Shown piece by piece: positions 13,606-24,670 of a DNA stretch of 64,000 nucleotides (positions are counted from its first letter, which is position 1; every line of letters begins with the position of its first letter). This DNA is from Auricularia sp. M13. Its lineage: Eukaryota; Basidiomycota; Agaricomycetes; Auriculariales; Auriculariaceae. The stretch lies in NCBI GenBank assembly GCA_037042915.1, contig CM073194.1, forward strand, positions 4,898,001 through 4,962,000. The letters are read 5' to 3'. The notes beneath the pieces were generated by a model, which was given only the letters and a program-made list of their open reading frames with translations, was not told the DNA's origin and did no database searches. A program made the position numbers and the translations under genes.

Positions 13606-15274
13606 ATGGTCGCCAAAATTGTCTTCGGGCTCCTCGCGCTCGCTGCTAAGTCGGTCCGCGCTGATTGTGCTGGAGGTGCGTCCGGCCGTTGCGCGCCTAG
13701 TGTGGATGGTTTGTTGACGGTGTCTGAAGGCGCTGGGACGCAGCCTGTTTGGGCGCAGTGTGGCGGTATTGGGTGGAATGGCGCGACTACTTGGTGTGTG
13801 TCCTTGATAGCTCTTACTAGACGACGCAAGCTGACTGTCACTCGTGCTCGGATGTAGCGGTGCGTTCGCGGTGCTCATGCTTCGACGTTTCGGGCTGCTT
13901 ATGAACTAGTCCACACGCAGTTAACGGCGCGAACTGCGTGAAGCAGAACGATTGTATGTGGACCAGTGCATGTCCACGCCCAGAAGCGCTGGCTGATGCT
14001 TGGTCGCCCTACCAGACTACTCCCAGTGTCTGCCCTGTACGACGACAACGACGCGCACGGTCAGCTCGTCCAGCGCGAGTACCGCGACGGTTACGCAGAC
14101 CTCGACGTCCGCTTCGTCCACGCCGACGACGCCGGGTGGACCCGCGAGCGCGATCAAGCATTGGTTTGTCTTTGGCGACTCGTACGATCTGTTTTATTGC
14201 GTTCTTGATCAGGTCTGCGTGTGCTGACGGAGATGAATGCTTTAGATACACCCAGACCCAGTTCAACTATACATCGACGCAGCCATCTGCCGCTAACCCC
14301 TTCGGTGAGCAGCACTGCCCTTCTCTTTGTTCGCAGCGACCTTACGCAAAGTGCTACGGCAGGCAACCCGCCCTACCCAGGATTCACAGCGTGCGGCTCG
14401 GTGCCGAACTGGATCGACCTGGCGATCACGAAGTACAACTCGTCGTCCCCGCCGCGGCTGACGTACAACTTCGCGTACGGCGGCGCGACGATCAACGCGT
14501 CGCTCGTGCCACCCTACACGCCCTCCGTGCTCTCGCTCATCGACCAGGTCAACCAGTTCGCCGCGGGCTACACGGGCGCGGCCAATAAACAACCTGCGTG
14601 GACGGGCAACAACACGTTCTTTGCGACGTGGATTGGGATCAACGATATCGGCAACTCGTACTATAATTCGGGAGATAGGGCCGCGTTTAATGGCGTGCTG
14701 GTCGACGCGTACTTTGCGCAGATGACGAGGCTGTACCAGGCGGGCGCGCGCAACTTTGTGTTCTTGAATGTGCCGCCGGTGGATCGGTCGCCTTTGGTGC
14801 GTCTGGACGCGAAGTTACATATGATTTTGAGCTGACGTTGTTTCTGTTGTGCACGATGTAGATGCTGCCCCAGAGCGGCGCGGCGCAGGAGAAGGTCGTC
14901 ATCAACGACTTTAACGCCAAGGTTGCGGCGCGCGCGCTGAGCTTCGCGGCGTCCAACGCGGGGGTGCGCACTCCGCCTCTTTCTTGCTGCCTCGGGCTGA
15001 CTTGTTGCTGCGCAGGTCAAGACCTGGGTGGTCGACACGAACACGCTCATCGGCGGCCTGCTCAACGCGCCGCAGGCGAATGGCTTCTCGGACGCGACGT
15101 CGTACGGGAGTCAGGCGGGCGTTATGTGGTGTAAGTTTTTCGTCTGTGTGAAAGGAAGTGAATACAGTTGCTGATGCTACCCCTTCAGGCAACAACTACC
15201 ATATCTCGCCTGGCGTGCACGACTTTGTCGCGCGCGAGGTGGTGCGGGTGTTGGCGGGCACGGGCGCGCTCTGA
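13606..15274 (+). CDS. secreted CE16 acetylesterase with N-terminal CBM1
   Basis: Extracellular GDSL-type carbohydrate esterase (CE16), expected to remove acetyl groups from hemicellulose oligomers. Nine exons: 13606-13793, 13858-13859, 13921-13953, 14016-14181, 14246-14304, 14363-14796, 14862-14963, 15016-15130, 15189-15274; 1185 nt, 394 aa. Signal peptide ~1-19, CBM1 ~48-80 with its four Cys (CGGIGWNGATTC, then CVKQNDYYSQC), a Thr/Ser linker to ~122, then the esterase: FGDSY (Ser130), NFAYGGATIN, WIGINDIG and NYHISPGVHD near the end. The second exon is only 2 nt; without it the third CBM1 Cys and the frame are lost. First of four CE16 genes on this strand and the only one with a binding domain. 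Its 434-nt exon equals three consecutive exons (114+208+112) of the third paralogue. Confidence 0.93.
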
Positions 15275-18328: not shown

Positions 18329-19623
18329 ATGAAGCTTCTCTTGCTCATCGGTTCTCTCGCTACTCTTGCCACAGTCCGCGCTACAGGTCGTCTATCTACG
18401 CTCGCGCCTGTTAAGGAGACAGCAGCGACTCAGTGGTTCATCTTCGGCGACTCGTACGTTGTCGTTGTCGTTCAGCACGGGCACGCCAGCGTCCAATTAA
18501 TGCACTCCCATAGATACACGCAGACGCTTTTCAAAGCGACCCTGGCCCAGCCTGACAATACGAACCCATTTGGCAAGCCATGCTCTCTCCTCCGCTATCA
18601 TCTCACTCTCATGCGAATTGCAGGCAACCCCGCGCTACCCGGCCGCACTGCATGCGGAACGGTCCCAAACTACGTATACTACGCCGCAATCAAGTACAAC
18701 GCCAGCTTGACGTACGCATATAACTTTGCGCGCGCCGGTACAAGTTGCAGTGTTGCGAAACGATTGGAGACTCTGACCTTTTGCTAGGGGCGTCGATCAA
18801 CGCCACCATCGTCCCTCCTGCTGCCCCGACCGTTCCCACAATCATCGAGCAGGTTGATGTGTTCGAGAAGACCTACGCAGGCCCGGCGCCCCTCGACAAC
18901 AGGATCTGGACGCCGGAGACGGCGCTGTTCTCCGTCTGGATTGGGATCAACGACGTTGGTGGTTCGTACCTTCGCAACGTCGACCAATCCGCGTACGTTA
19001 TTCCCATTCTCAGTCCACATCAAGGTCAGAAGCAGCTGATACCTTTGTCTCAGTCTCCACGAGGCTCTCATGGACAGCTACCTCCGTAACCTACAGCGCC
19101 TTTACGACCTTGGCGCGCGAAAGTTCCTGATCCTCAATGTGCCACCTACGGACCGCTCTCCGCTAGTGCGTCAAGTCTTGGAGTATGATTTTGCCTGACC
19201 AATGACCATCAGATGCTTGCGCGCTCTCCGTCAGACCAAGCTAAATACAAAGCTGCGACACACGACTTCAACGCGAAGCTCGTGAGCCTTGTTTCCGCGT
19301 TCAAACTGGCCAATCCTCAGGTCTGCGCTCGCTTCATTGACTTCATTGGCGGTGTACTGACACGTTATAAAGAGCTTTGTCAAGACCGTAGATACTAACT
19401 TCCTGCTTACACAAATCCTGGACAACCCTCAGAAATATGGTTTTGTGGACGCCGTGAGCCATGGAGCGGGGGACGACGTCACGTGGTGTACGTGTACTGT
19501 ATGGCCCGTATCATCGCGTACTGACGGAAAGCTGCAGGCGGAACTTATCATATTTCACCGCATGTGCACGACTATGTAGCTCAGAGGATTCGCGGTGTTT
19601 TGGCTGGCTCTGGCCTTCTTTAA
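18329..19623 (+). CDS. secreted CE16 acetylesterase, no CBM
   Basis: GDSL carbohydrate esterase, 307 aa. Exons 18329-18453, 18514-18572, 18624-18737, 18788-18992, 19054-19165, 19213-19320, 19373-19487, 19538-19623. Signal peptide ~1-18, catalytic Ser42 (WFIFGDSY, the Ser codon split by an intron), NFARAGASIN for the oxyanion Gly region, WIGINDVGG for the Asn block, and TYHISPHVHD for the His block. The second intron (18573-18623) begins with GC, not GT: only that border gives Asn-Pro-Phe-Gly-Asn-Pro. Exon lengths 59, 114, 112, 108, 115 and 86 recur exactly or almost so in the next two paralogues. Expected to act outside the cell on acetylated oligosaccharides. Confidence 0.92.
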
Positions 19624-20994
19624 TCGTGCTCCTCAATATTCCATTTCTGTCAACGGACTACCACTGTTTGCAAAGTATCATGGCGATTCTGTAAATTTAC
19701 TCGTATTCCGAGAAATTTAAAGAAATGAAGTCACATGAAATGGATTTGTGTTCATTGGGAGCACGCAGTAGCGTATTCTCTAGTTTCTTGAGGCTTGAGC
19801 AATATCGAGTTCGGGACTTCGAGCCGAAGAGTCCGACAACCGGATCAGAAGCGCCGAATCATCTTTTACACCATGACCGCCATGGCCGCAGACTTCAGAG
19901 CGTTTTCAACACTCGCACACCCCAACGAGGCCAGCAGATCGTTGCATCTGACAGGGAAACTTCAGCTCAGCTCAGTTCTACGTGATCCCGTGATGTCAGC
20001 CGGCTCCTGTTCGTCGAGTTCGAATTGTCTGCGGGCAAGCATTGCTACATCTGCAATTCCTGGCGATCTGTGCATCCTGCGCTGTGCACTGACTTTTGGG
20101 AGCGTCTCCCCGTGGCTTTAATGATTAGAACTGCGGCAGTATGCAGCTGCTACACTACCTGGACCCTACTGCGGCTGCTACACTTGCTGGACCCTGGAGC
20201 TTGCAGCCAGTTCTACCTCACGTCACGTGTCTTTGTGCGGCCCGTAAACAAGGCTGTGGACTCCGCCACTCGCTCGCGCTGGACACGTGGATACGCACAC
20301 ATGGCAACTGGACGGTTGCGGCGCTCCGGAGGAACTGTTCGCGGCCCGACTTGCAGCGCCCGACTTGCAGCCACAGAGGCACATCCCAGACGCTCATAAA
20401 CTCGAAACCCCACTTACTATGTCCTCAGAGCTTCCCTCGTGATGTATTGCTATTGCTCGCGACGATCAACGCCGGTTAGCGTCTTGCTCATTTCGCGTTC
20501 TGGCTTTCCCAGAAATGGTCGCTTGATCACGCGAACGTCTTGCACCGGTCTCTTGCAGCTAGTTCTCCCTGGAAGGAGAACCATTGCGGCACTGGAGAGC
20601 GCACACGCCAAGGATATTGCTAGTTTTTCCCGATCAGCCACATCCTTCGGAATCGATAACCACGTCGAGGGATGTCCCTCTGTGCATCAGCTGAGACTCC
20701 TCAATCCTGCAGTCTTCCGCTCGGAGCTGAGGAGTATTATTGGCTTTCATGAGGATGCGGATCGATATCTGTGCAACACAGCAACCTGCCCGGCTTGTTC
20801 GGCTCAGCCTCAGTCTGGAAGAGCTCGCGTCTCGGGATACCGTGAGGCTGTTGTCCCACAAGCGCTTTTGTTGTTTCAGCGATCCAAAAATCATGCTCTA
20901 CGCGATTGTCACCTGGACCATGTTGCACTTCCTGGGATTTCCCCGTATAAAAGGCCACTGTGAGGAGGCTTGGGAAAGGCATCCCCACACCAAT
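19624..20994. other. intergenic, no gene seen
   Basis: No coding family recognised. Near 20135-20200 a short sequence (GCTGCTACACT, cTGGACCCT) is locally duplicated. The right end holds the promoter of the next esterase. Confidence 0.5.
20946..20953 (+). promoter_or_regulatory. TATA box of third CE16 gene
   Basis: TATAAAAG lies ~42 bases before the ATG at 20995. Confidence 0.6.
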
Positions 20995-22245
20995 ATGTTC
21001 GCAGTAGTCCTCGCTCTATCTAGCATCCTGCCAATCGCCCTGGCAGCGTCAACACCAGAACACTGGTTCATCTTTGGCGATTCGTACGGCCTCCTTGTCC
21101 AAGTATTCTCTGTAACATCTCATCTCGTTGTAGCTACTCGACGACCACATTCAATTGGCACTCGGCGCAACCGAACAGTGACAATCCATTTGGCAAGTAT
21201 TCAAGTCTGATATCCACCCTGAAATTTCATGGGACCATGCAGGGAACCCCGCGCTGCCCGGGCTGACAGCCTGCGGCAAGGTTCCGAACTACGTTTACTA
21301 CGCCTCCGTCAAGTACAACACCACGACGGTATATACGTATAACTTTGCTCAAGGCGGTACGCCTCACACACTGGGTATGCTTTCGTTCTCATGCGTGCAC
21401 TTAGGCGCGACAATCAACGAGACAATCGTCCCGCCATCGAGGCCTGTCAAGACCGTCGTTGACCAAGTTACTACGTTTGAGGCGAGCTACACGGGCCCAA
21501 ACCCTTTGAACAGGCTCTCTTGGACCGGGAATAATTCGCTCTTCTCGGTCTGGATCGGGATCAACGACGTCCACCAATCATTTCTCCGTAACTCCATGGC
21601 CAACCTATCCGCGTACGCAACCAGGTTTCTGTGCTTTTATCGTCACGATTAGCTAACTTGTTCTCCCGTCAGGATACACGACGAACTCATCGTCAGCTAC
21701 ATTAACAACCTGCAGAGATTGTTCACCCTCGGTGCACGCAACTTCCTCATTCTGAACGTGCCGCCGACCGACCGTACTCCTGATGTGATATATGTATGCT
21801 CACCACCTTATCGTCATTCTAAACCCTTGCAGGTCCTCAAGTTCGGAGAAAATTATCGGAAGAAATACCGGGAAGGCGTGCACGACTTCAACGCGAAGCT
21901 TATCGGCGGCATCTCCGCGTTCAGGCTCGCAAATCCCGCGGTTTGTGCTTAATAGTGCCGATTTCAGATGACTGATATGCGTCGCCAAGGCCTCATTGTG
22001 GACCGTGGACTCTTATTCCCTGCTCACAAACATTCTCAACGACCCTCAGCAATATGGCTTCGTCGACGCTGTCAGCGTCAGCAATAGAACGGAAGCCGAC
22101 GTCGCGTGGTGTACGCTGATCACTCAGAATGAGTGAGAGTTGTACTGATCTCGATTCAGGCAACGGCTTCCATATCTCGCCTGGCATGCACCACTATGTT
22201 GCGCAGGGGATTCATACAGGCCTCAATGGTTCGGGTTTGCTTTGA
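20995..22245 (+). CDS. secreted CE16 acetylesterase, no CBM
   Basis: 298 aa. Exons 20995-21083, 21134-21192, 21243-21356, 21405-21612, 21673-21784, 21833-21940, 21990-22110, 22160-22245. Signal peptide ~1-18, mature enzyme starting near STPEHWFIFGDSY (Ser30), then NFAQGGATIN, WIGINDVHQS and GFHISPGMHH. The intron at 21193-21242 begins GCAAGT. In the His block the sequence is PGMHHY where the paralogues have HD, so the acid/base neighbourhood differs slightly. All introns sit at the same positions as in the genes on either side, showing tandem duplication. Confidence 0.92.
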
Positions 22246-23279: not shown

Positions 23280-24536
23280 ATGTTGCCATTCCTCCTCCTA
23301 ATCTCTGGCGTCCTATCCGCCGCGGTGTCAGTGTCTTCGCCGGCACATTGGTTCATTTTTGGCGATTCGTACGATCTCTTTCTCCATGCCGCCTCGGCAG
23401 CATCACATCCATTGCAGGTTCACGAAGACACTGTTCAATTGGCACTTGGCGCAACCGAACGACGTCAACCCATTCGGCAAGTACAGGATTTCTATTCGAT
23501 TTCCGCCATTAAATCTCATCAGTCCTGCAGGTAACCCGGCGCTGCCGGGAATTACAGCCTGCGGCCTGGTCCCAAACTTCGTTTATTTCGCCTCTGTCAA
23601 GTACAACACCACTACTATTTACACGTACAATCTCTCTCAAGGCGGTATGTCTCGTAGACTGGGTGCTATGTCTGTTTGACCACGCGCTCAGGTGCGACTA
23701 TTAACGCGACCATCGTGCCGCCGTCGAGCCCTGTCATCCAGACATTCGTAGACCAGATTACTACATTCCAGGCGAGCTACACAGGCCCTAGTCCTTTGAA
23801 CAGGATTGCATGGATGGGTAACAACTCGATGTTCTTGGTTTGGATCGGAATCAACGACGTCAACACCCTGTTCTTTAATAACTCCCCGGCTACGTTATCC
23901 GCGTAGGCACTCAATTTTATTGAACTTGCAATATCGCACTCCGATAACCTATGCTTGCTTCAGGGTTCAAGATGAACTGATCGTCAGCTACTACAATAAC
24001 TTACAGCGGTTATTCGATCTCGGTGCACGCAACTTCGTAGTCCTGAACGTCCCACCGACCGATCGCTGTCCTCAGGTACTACACATATCCTCACCACAGT
24101 TCGCCATTCCCAACCACCCGCAGATCCTCACTCATTCCAAAATATATCAAGACATCTATCGGACAGGGGTGGACGGCTTCAACGCGAAGCTTATCAAGGG
24201 CGTCGCCGCGTTCAGGCTCGCAAATCCCGATGTTCGTGGGCAATCTTACCGATGTCAGATGGCTGACATCTGTCGCGCAAGGCCTCCCTGTGGATTGTGG
24301 ACACCAATTCTCCATTGAATAACGTTCTCAACGACCCTGCTCCATATGGCTTCGTCGACGCTGTCAGCTACGGAGCGGAACCGAATGTCGCATGGTGTAC
24401 GTGTACCACTCAAGTCTGACCATGAGAGATGTACTCACACCCTAATGTAGGCAACAGCTTCCATATCTCCCCAGGTTTGCACGACTTCGTTGCGCAGGGT
24501 ATTCAGGCCAGCCTCAATGGCTCAGGGTTGATCTGA
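23280..24536 (+). CDS. secreted CE16 acetylesterase, no CBM
   Basis: 297 aa. Exons 23280-23368, 23418-23476, 23531-23644, 23692-23902, 23964-24075, 24124-24231, 24282-24396, 24451-24536. Signal peptide ~1-16, Ser30 in WFIFGDSF (Phe instead of the Tyr of its paralogues), NLSQGGATIN, WIGINDVNT and SFHISPGLHD. The intron at 23477-23530 again begins GCAAGT. It is closest by eye to the third gene (shared KYNTTT and SYTGPxPLNR motifs), so the pair probably arose last. Last member of the cluster. Confidence 0.92.
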
Positions 24537-24670
24537 TTGTATACTCTTTACGTTCCCTGTATCAAGCGCCCCAGGAATCTGTCTCAGAAATAAAGTCTGT
24601 CATGCTCGGTTCATAAGTATTCTAGGGCCAGGACATGATCCAATCTCAAGAACATTCCCCAACCACAAGA

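Follow-up and report, generated by a model that had tools for sequence, protein, structure and literature searches.

In the 64-kb window analysed here (C2:4898001-4962000 of the Auricularia sp. M13 genome, which was searched over 52.1 Mb in 14 contigs), a plus-strand gene at 13606-15274 very likely contains a true 2-nt exon, the dinucleotide CG at 13858-13859, with a short intron of ordinary size on either side. The predicted gene product is a GDSL-type esterase with an N-terminal cellulose-binding domain, CBM1, and the CG exon would complete the second CBM1 cysteine with the reading frame preserved. The microexon is clearly the best reading of this stretch. The initial annotation had proposed it, and that interpretation is supported by the best Pfam score, by spliced profile alignment, by splice-site strength and by an intronless CBM1 copy at another place in the genome. 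The abundance of CBM1 genes and the shortness of the introns would suit a wood-decay basidiomycete.

The 127-nt gap in the CBM1 coding region

Exon 1 (13606-13793) begins with an N-terminus that, judged by eye only, resembles a signal peptide, and the esterase is probably secreted. It encodes the first half of CBM1 and ends GGC GCG ACT ACT TG. It is followed by intron 1 (13794-13857, 64 nt, GTGTGT...GATGTAG), the 2-nt exon 2 (13858-13859), intron 2 (13860-13920, 61 nt, GTGCGT...CACGCAG) and the 33-nt exon 3 (13921-13953), which begins TT AAC GGC GCG AAC TGC and encodes NGANCVKQND of CBM1. The annotated coordinates and letters of the 13794-13920 region and both intron sizes agree with the sequence. 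The gap between exons 1 and 3 measures 127 nt, about twice the ordinary intron length in these genes, and joining 13793 directly to 13921 is two letters short and yields TGT TAA, a stop, one of the two outcomes annotated for a single intron with these outer borders. The AG-CG-GT at 13856-13861 supplies the two letters, completing TGC and beginning GTT (Cys-Val), and keeps the frame. Without the CG exon the frame is broken or the CBM1 motif is altered, the cysteine being lost in shifted alternatives that were scored. The cysteine concerned is the second of the four in CBM1 and not, as annotated, the third. Moving the donor by two bases (13796-13920) leaves the frame open, reads Thr-Thr-Trp-Phe and loses the cysteine without a stop. 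On its sequence, the CG fits the picture of a sub-codon exon, one of 1-2 nt between canonical GT-AG introns of ordinary size.

The complete model comprises nine exons of, in order, 188, 2, 33, 166, 59, 434, 102, 115 and 86 nt, which together make 1185 nt and code for 394 aa with no stop inside the frame, in line with the annotated totals. In this reading the CBM1 cysteine pattern is present, and Pfam CBM_1 (PF00734) matches residues 49-76 with 49.8 bits in the full protein and 56.3 bits as a fragment (cut-off 20.6), while Lipase_GDSL (PF00657) matches residues 125-382 with 46.7 bits (cut-off 23.6). The putative placement of the esterase in family CE16 is that of the initial annotation.

Splice chains, splice sites and chance expectation

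Enumeration of chains of GT-AG introns (each at least 35 nt, at most three per chain) gave, from 56 candidate introns, 53 open chains, many of which discard much of CBM1. The claim that CBM1 can only be continued through the microexon was thus too strong; other acceptors or donors can also give a full-length protein, but they need an intron of 110-125 nt or an unusual CBM1. The single intron 13794-13920 is absent from the open chains. Thr-Thr-Cys is kept in 3 of the 53. Besides the microexon chain these are one intron of 116 nt (13794-13909), which retains the cysteine and lengthens the peptide by three residues (Cys-Pro-His-Ala-Val-Asn-Gly-Ala-Asn-Cys), and a pair of introns (13794-13857 and 13864-13909) that encloses a 6-nt exon and adds five residues. 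A single 125-nt intron (13796-13920) replaces Cys-Val by Trp-Phe. Scored against Pfam CBM_1, six of the open chains (the microexon and five rivals) reached 56.3 bits for the microexon, 46.5 for the 116-nt intron, 41.9 for the 125-nt intron, 41.1 for the chain with the 6-nt exon, and 36.4 and 33.4 for two further chains. When GC donors are also allowed 200 chains are open, and the C-x5-C pattern is found in three, the microexon chain included. At the level of transcripts, the CG exon predicts the junction TTG-CG-TTAAC, and TTG-TCCACACGCAG or TTGGT-TTAAC would be at odds with it.

The same form was picked by a spliced profile alignment, in which a CBM1 profile built from seven seed sequences, the target left out, was fitted to genomic DNA; exon size was free, and GT-AG introns could measure 44-130 nt. 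The microexon form scored 79.4, against 68.9 when exons below 3 nt were barred, a change of -10.5 that results in the Trp-Phe form; barring exons below 6 nt cost the same 10.5 units, again with the 125-nt intron as the best form. Across 24 settings (two profiles, four intron costs and three weightings of length and site) the microexon form was best in 20, and the score of the real sequence was reached by 0 of 1500 shuffles.

Splice-site strength was measured with a weight matrix trained on 62 introns, of which 56 belong to other CBM1 copies and 6 to this gene (introns 1 and 2 excluded); introns above 90 nt and duplicates of an intron already included were left out of this training set, which ranges from 45 to 65 nt. 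The GT at 13860, immediately after the CG, is the top of 13 donors in 13780-13934 (8.7), followed by 13796 (7.1) and 13794 (7.0), and it scores at or above 45 of the 62 training donors. The same region holds six AGs, with the acceptor at 13920 first (4.4), that at 13857 second (4.1) and that at 13909 lower (3.1). Both introns fall within the training range of sizes, and the branch-like motif of intron 1, CTGAC, is the commonest among the training introns. If there were a single intron, the top donor of the stretch and its second-ranking acceptor, two bases apart, would have no purpose.

The codons expected from the microexon are found uninterrupted elsewhere in the genome. An intronless CBM1 (L001, C1:6828367-6828450) reads ACT ACC TGC GTT TCT GGT GCA ACC TGC GTG AAG, at the corresponding codons, with TGC GTT in one exon; it is a paralogous domain of another gene and not an orthologue. 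For a wider comparison we used the 48 CBM1 matches listed for the genome, which has at least that many; they gave 46 distinct alignments (2 were dropped, and an overlap rule was applied to tandem repeats), some of them weak. Among the matches listed, five residues separate the second and third cysteine columns in 44 of the 46 alignments and four in the other 2, a count that leans to five because insertions are penalised in the alignment. At this place the microexon reading has five residues and the 116-nt intron eight.

How readily such a site arises by chance depends on what is asked of it. Any AG-[CT]N-GT with room for two introns was found in 355 of 5000 and in 1523 of 20,000 (7.6%) dinucleotide shuffles of the inner sequence, and its bare presence is therefore weak evidence. 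A site of this cysteine-restoring kind whose two splice sites both match the real pair in strength was found in 5 of 20,000 shuffles. Among 18,250 real 127-nt segments, taken from both strands of the window and overlapping at every 7 bases, 10 pass, of which 5 hold the true site and 5 hold one other site (minus strand, 31400 of the reverse complement).

Several observations weigh against the microexon. Other open splice chains exist, as described above. Its two acceptors are middling to weak, with 13857 scoring at or above 10 and 13920 at or above 13 of the 62 training acceptors. In intron 1 the CTGAC is 24 nt away from the intron end, whereas the distance is 20 nt or less in 42 of the 49 training introns with a branch-like motif; the only such motif of intron 2 is CTTAT, at a distance of 20 nt. 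Finally, the remaining 4 of the 24 alignment settings (intron cost 9 or 12, no length term) prefer the single 125-nt intron.

Alternative readings and a possible splicing route

The 116-nt intron 13794-13909, with the acceptor CTAG, would give a CBM1 that keeps its cysteine and gains three residues. This chain is open, shares its donor with the microexon chain and, with its Pfam score, stays well above the cut-off. However, its acceptor is the weaker one (3.1, at or above 7 of 62 training acceptors), it is longer than any of the 62 training introns, which measure 45-65 nt (those above 90 nt having been excluded beforehand), and its eight residues between the cysteines were seen in 0 of 46 alignments by column among the matches listed, with an aligner biased against insertions. 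It also leaves the strong donor at 13860 unexplained, and we consider it improbable.

The 125-nt intron 13796-13920 would instead produce Trp-Phe and a CBM1 with three of its four cysteines, either as the sole product or as a minor isoform of that kind. Its donor is on par with that at 13794 (7.1 versus 7.0), it is the best model once exons below 3 or 6 nt are barred, and it is the form preferred outright in the 4 settings mentioned above. Against this stand its Pfam score of 41.9 bits, an intron of twice the usual size, the loss of a disulphide cysteine, and an acceptor at 13857 and a donor at 13860 that both go unexplained. We give this reading little credence.

The two near-equal donors at 13794 (7.0) and 13796 (7.1) lie two bases apart in the doubled donor GTGTGTGT, which therefore allows a second in-frame product without the CG (Trp-Phe). 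The CG exon could then act as a frame-neutral switch, with inclusion from 13794 giving Cys-Val and skipping from 13796 giving Trp-Phe, both at full length. Such a switch, which we think a long shot, would let one gene make an esterase with a sound CBM1 and an esterase whose CBM1 lacks a disulphide.

It is still less credible that the CBM1 part is decayed or holds a small assembly error and that the CG exon is an accident that rescues the reading on paper only. The AG-[CT]N-GT pattern does arise by chance in about 7-8% of such stretches, but the nine exons form one open frame, the esterase domain reaches 46.7 bits against a cut-off of 23.6, and the sites flanking the CG are far stronger than chance (5/20,000). 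Least credible of all, and very improbable, is a stwintron (spliceosomal twin intron), in which one intron is nested in the splice site of another and two-step removal leaves no exon. The layout of two abutting fungal introns is similar to that of the stwintrons described, whose adjoining introns are, in the part of the report available, likewise removed stepwise as we propose here, with no exon remaining, unlike here (PMC6616335). Removing all of 13794-13920 gives TGT TAA, which speaks against a stwintron, as that has no exon between its nested introns. Shifted borders give only the single-intron peptides, and the three of these that were scored with the rest of CBM1 kept are poorer.

If the CG at 13858-13859 is an exon, each of its flanking introns would be recognised separately, by intron definition, which is how fungal introns of such size are recognised. 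Only two bases separate the acceptor of intron 1 from the donor of intron 2, and the two could hardly be occupied together, so that removal should be stepwise. Introns 1 and 2 would be excised one after the other, joining TG, CG and TT into TGC GTT (Cys-Val). We infer splicing at the CG exon in the cell, the order of removal and constitutive use. If this is true, accurate splicing of two fungal introns is possible across a spacing of just two bases.

Exons of this size in other organisms

The CG exon is very probably real and, as such, a well-supported new example of a rare but known kind, tiny exons being already known in other fungi and in plants. Within the accessible parts of the reports cited here, the closest case is that of the Fusarium CYP621A P450 genes, where a 1-nt exon is described in 20 orthologues, with RNA reads in two species (PMC12940212). 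As in our gene, an ultra-small exon stands between two short fungal introns, lies within a conserved motif and is needed for the frame, and the intronless CBM1 of L001 parallels the intronless CYP621B1 that served there as a length marker, although L001 is a domain of another gene (PMC12940212). The Fusarium exon differs in being a single base, in an ascomycete and in a P450, and in having the backing of orthologues and RNA reads, whereas the CG exon is predicted from sequence (PMC12940212). Arabidopsis APC11 likewise has an exon below codon size that is required for the frame, in this case of 1 nt, for which Guo and Liu propose intron definition and stepwise removal; it differs in being a plant gene with a longer intervening sequence (422 nt) that was tested with reporter constructs (PMC4674806).

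Very short exons, down to less than one codon, are said to be typical of Phlebia radiata, which seemingly has one CE16 acetylesterase among its CBM1 enzymes; the statement on sub-codon exons is a general one, and the available part of that report describes no individual exon, unlike the CG exon here (PMC6540522). In the white-rot fungus Phanerochaete chrysosporium, which has introns of 45-55 bp, small exons are likewise common, and the shortest P450 microexon given in the available part of that report is 6 bp, versus 2 nt here (PMC1184071). Plant microexons include some of 1 nt (PMC8831610). In the literature on microexons in fungi and white rot, covered by titles and the beginnings of abstracts, we found no 2-nt exon in a fungal gene, and a search aimed at 2-nt exons brought up one unrelated paper, which is no proof of absence. 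Sub-codon exons are, according to the available parts of two reports, easily overlooked by gene finders and read aligners (PMC8831610, PMC12940212), and their host genes therefore risk being annotated as truncated, frame-shifted or domain-less. CBM1 spans about 33 residues, and the spacing of its four cysteines is nearly constant. A 2-nt exon within it makes an unusually clean test case, as the product is predictable residue by residue.

Other CBM1 copies, the rest of the gene and its esterase relatives

Exon 3 is followed by intron 3 (13954-14015, 62 nt), whose position at CBM1 column 28, phase 1, is common to other CBM1 copies in the genome. The two introns around the CG, at column 16 phase 2 and column 17 phase 1, were found only in this gene among alignments scoring at least 60, which makes it probable that both arose in this gene or among its near relatives. 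The nearest intron positions are column 16 phase 0 (L009) and column 15 phase 1 (L010). Duplication of one intron into two was considered and set aside, as the alignment score of 5.5 between introns 1 and 2 is weak, being attained by 50 of 1000 shuffled versions of intron 2. A genome search with the 127-nt stretch, in which common words are skipped, gave no match besides the stretch itself.

The other CBM1 copies served as a negative control. The aligner was free to use 1-nt exons, and among the matches listed an internal exon below 14 nt occurs in 0 of the 45 other CBM1 alignments. Somewhat larger ones are seen. The CBM1 of L010 (C6:966419-966463, minus strand), whose peptide is one of the profile seeds, is best read with an internal exon of 15 nt (CTTGCCCGGCGGGAT), flanked by introns of 56 and 52 nt, and barring exons below 30 nt costs it 49.5 units. 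That of L043 (C4:4224570-4224626, minus strand) is likewise read with a 15-nt internal exon, here between two 56-nt introns, at a cost of 23.8 units under the same bar, and that of L044 has a possible 14-nt internal exon with a gain of only 1.2 units. Three clusters of repeated CBM1 units lie within 50 kb (C3:3957982-3958864, 3973994-3974877 and 4006698-4007569), and a stop codon inside two Pfam-matched units of the third suggests that this one is a decayed copy. L015 (C11:434538-434591) and L016 (C11:2023900-2023953), 1.6 Mb apart on opposite strands, share the same 33-residue peptide and intron sizes, which suggests a recent duplication.

Downstream of intron 3, again on the plus strand, exon 4 (14016-14181) carries the end of CBM1, a Ser/Thr-rich linker and the start of the esterase domain, and is followed by intron 4 (14182-14245, 64 nt), exon 5 (14246-14304) and intron 5 (14305-14362, 58 nt). 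Exon 6 (14363-14796) encodes the core of the GDSL esterase domain. Intron 6 (14797-14861, 65 nt) ends GATGTAG, as intron 1 does, and the gene continues with exon 7 (14862-14963), intron 7 (14964-15015, 52 nt), exon 8 (15016-15130), intron 8 (15131-15188, 58 nt) and exon 9 (15189-15274), which includes the stop codon.

Such esterases usually have an Asp before the C-terminal His. Its absence here might have pointed to decay, an idea that was abandoned because esterase relatives in the window share a similar HISP context. Scans with exon 6, which have no bearing on splicing, found no match in viral contigs and two distant loci labelled Arenicella in prokaryote genomes. At least three more esterase-domain relatives lie downstream on the same strand of the window, at about 18600-19800, 21200-21900 and 23500-24600, and at least one more lies just outside it on the minus strand (C2:4967478-4969987); among the matches listed, none of these has a CBM1.
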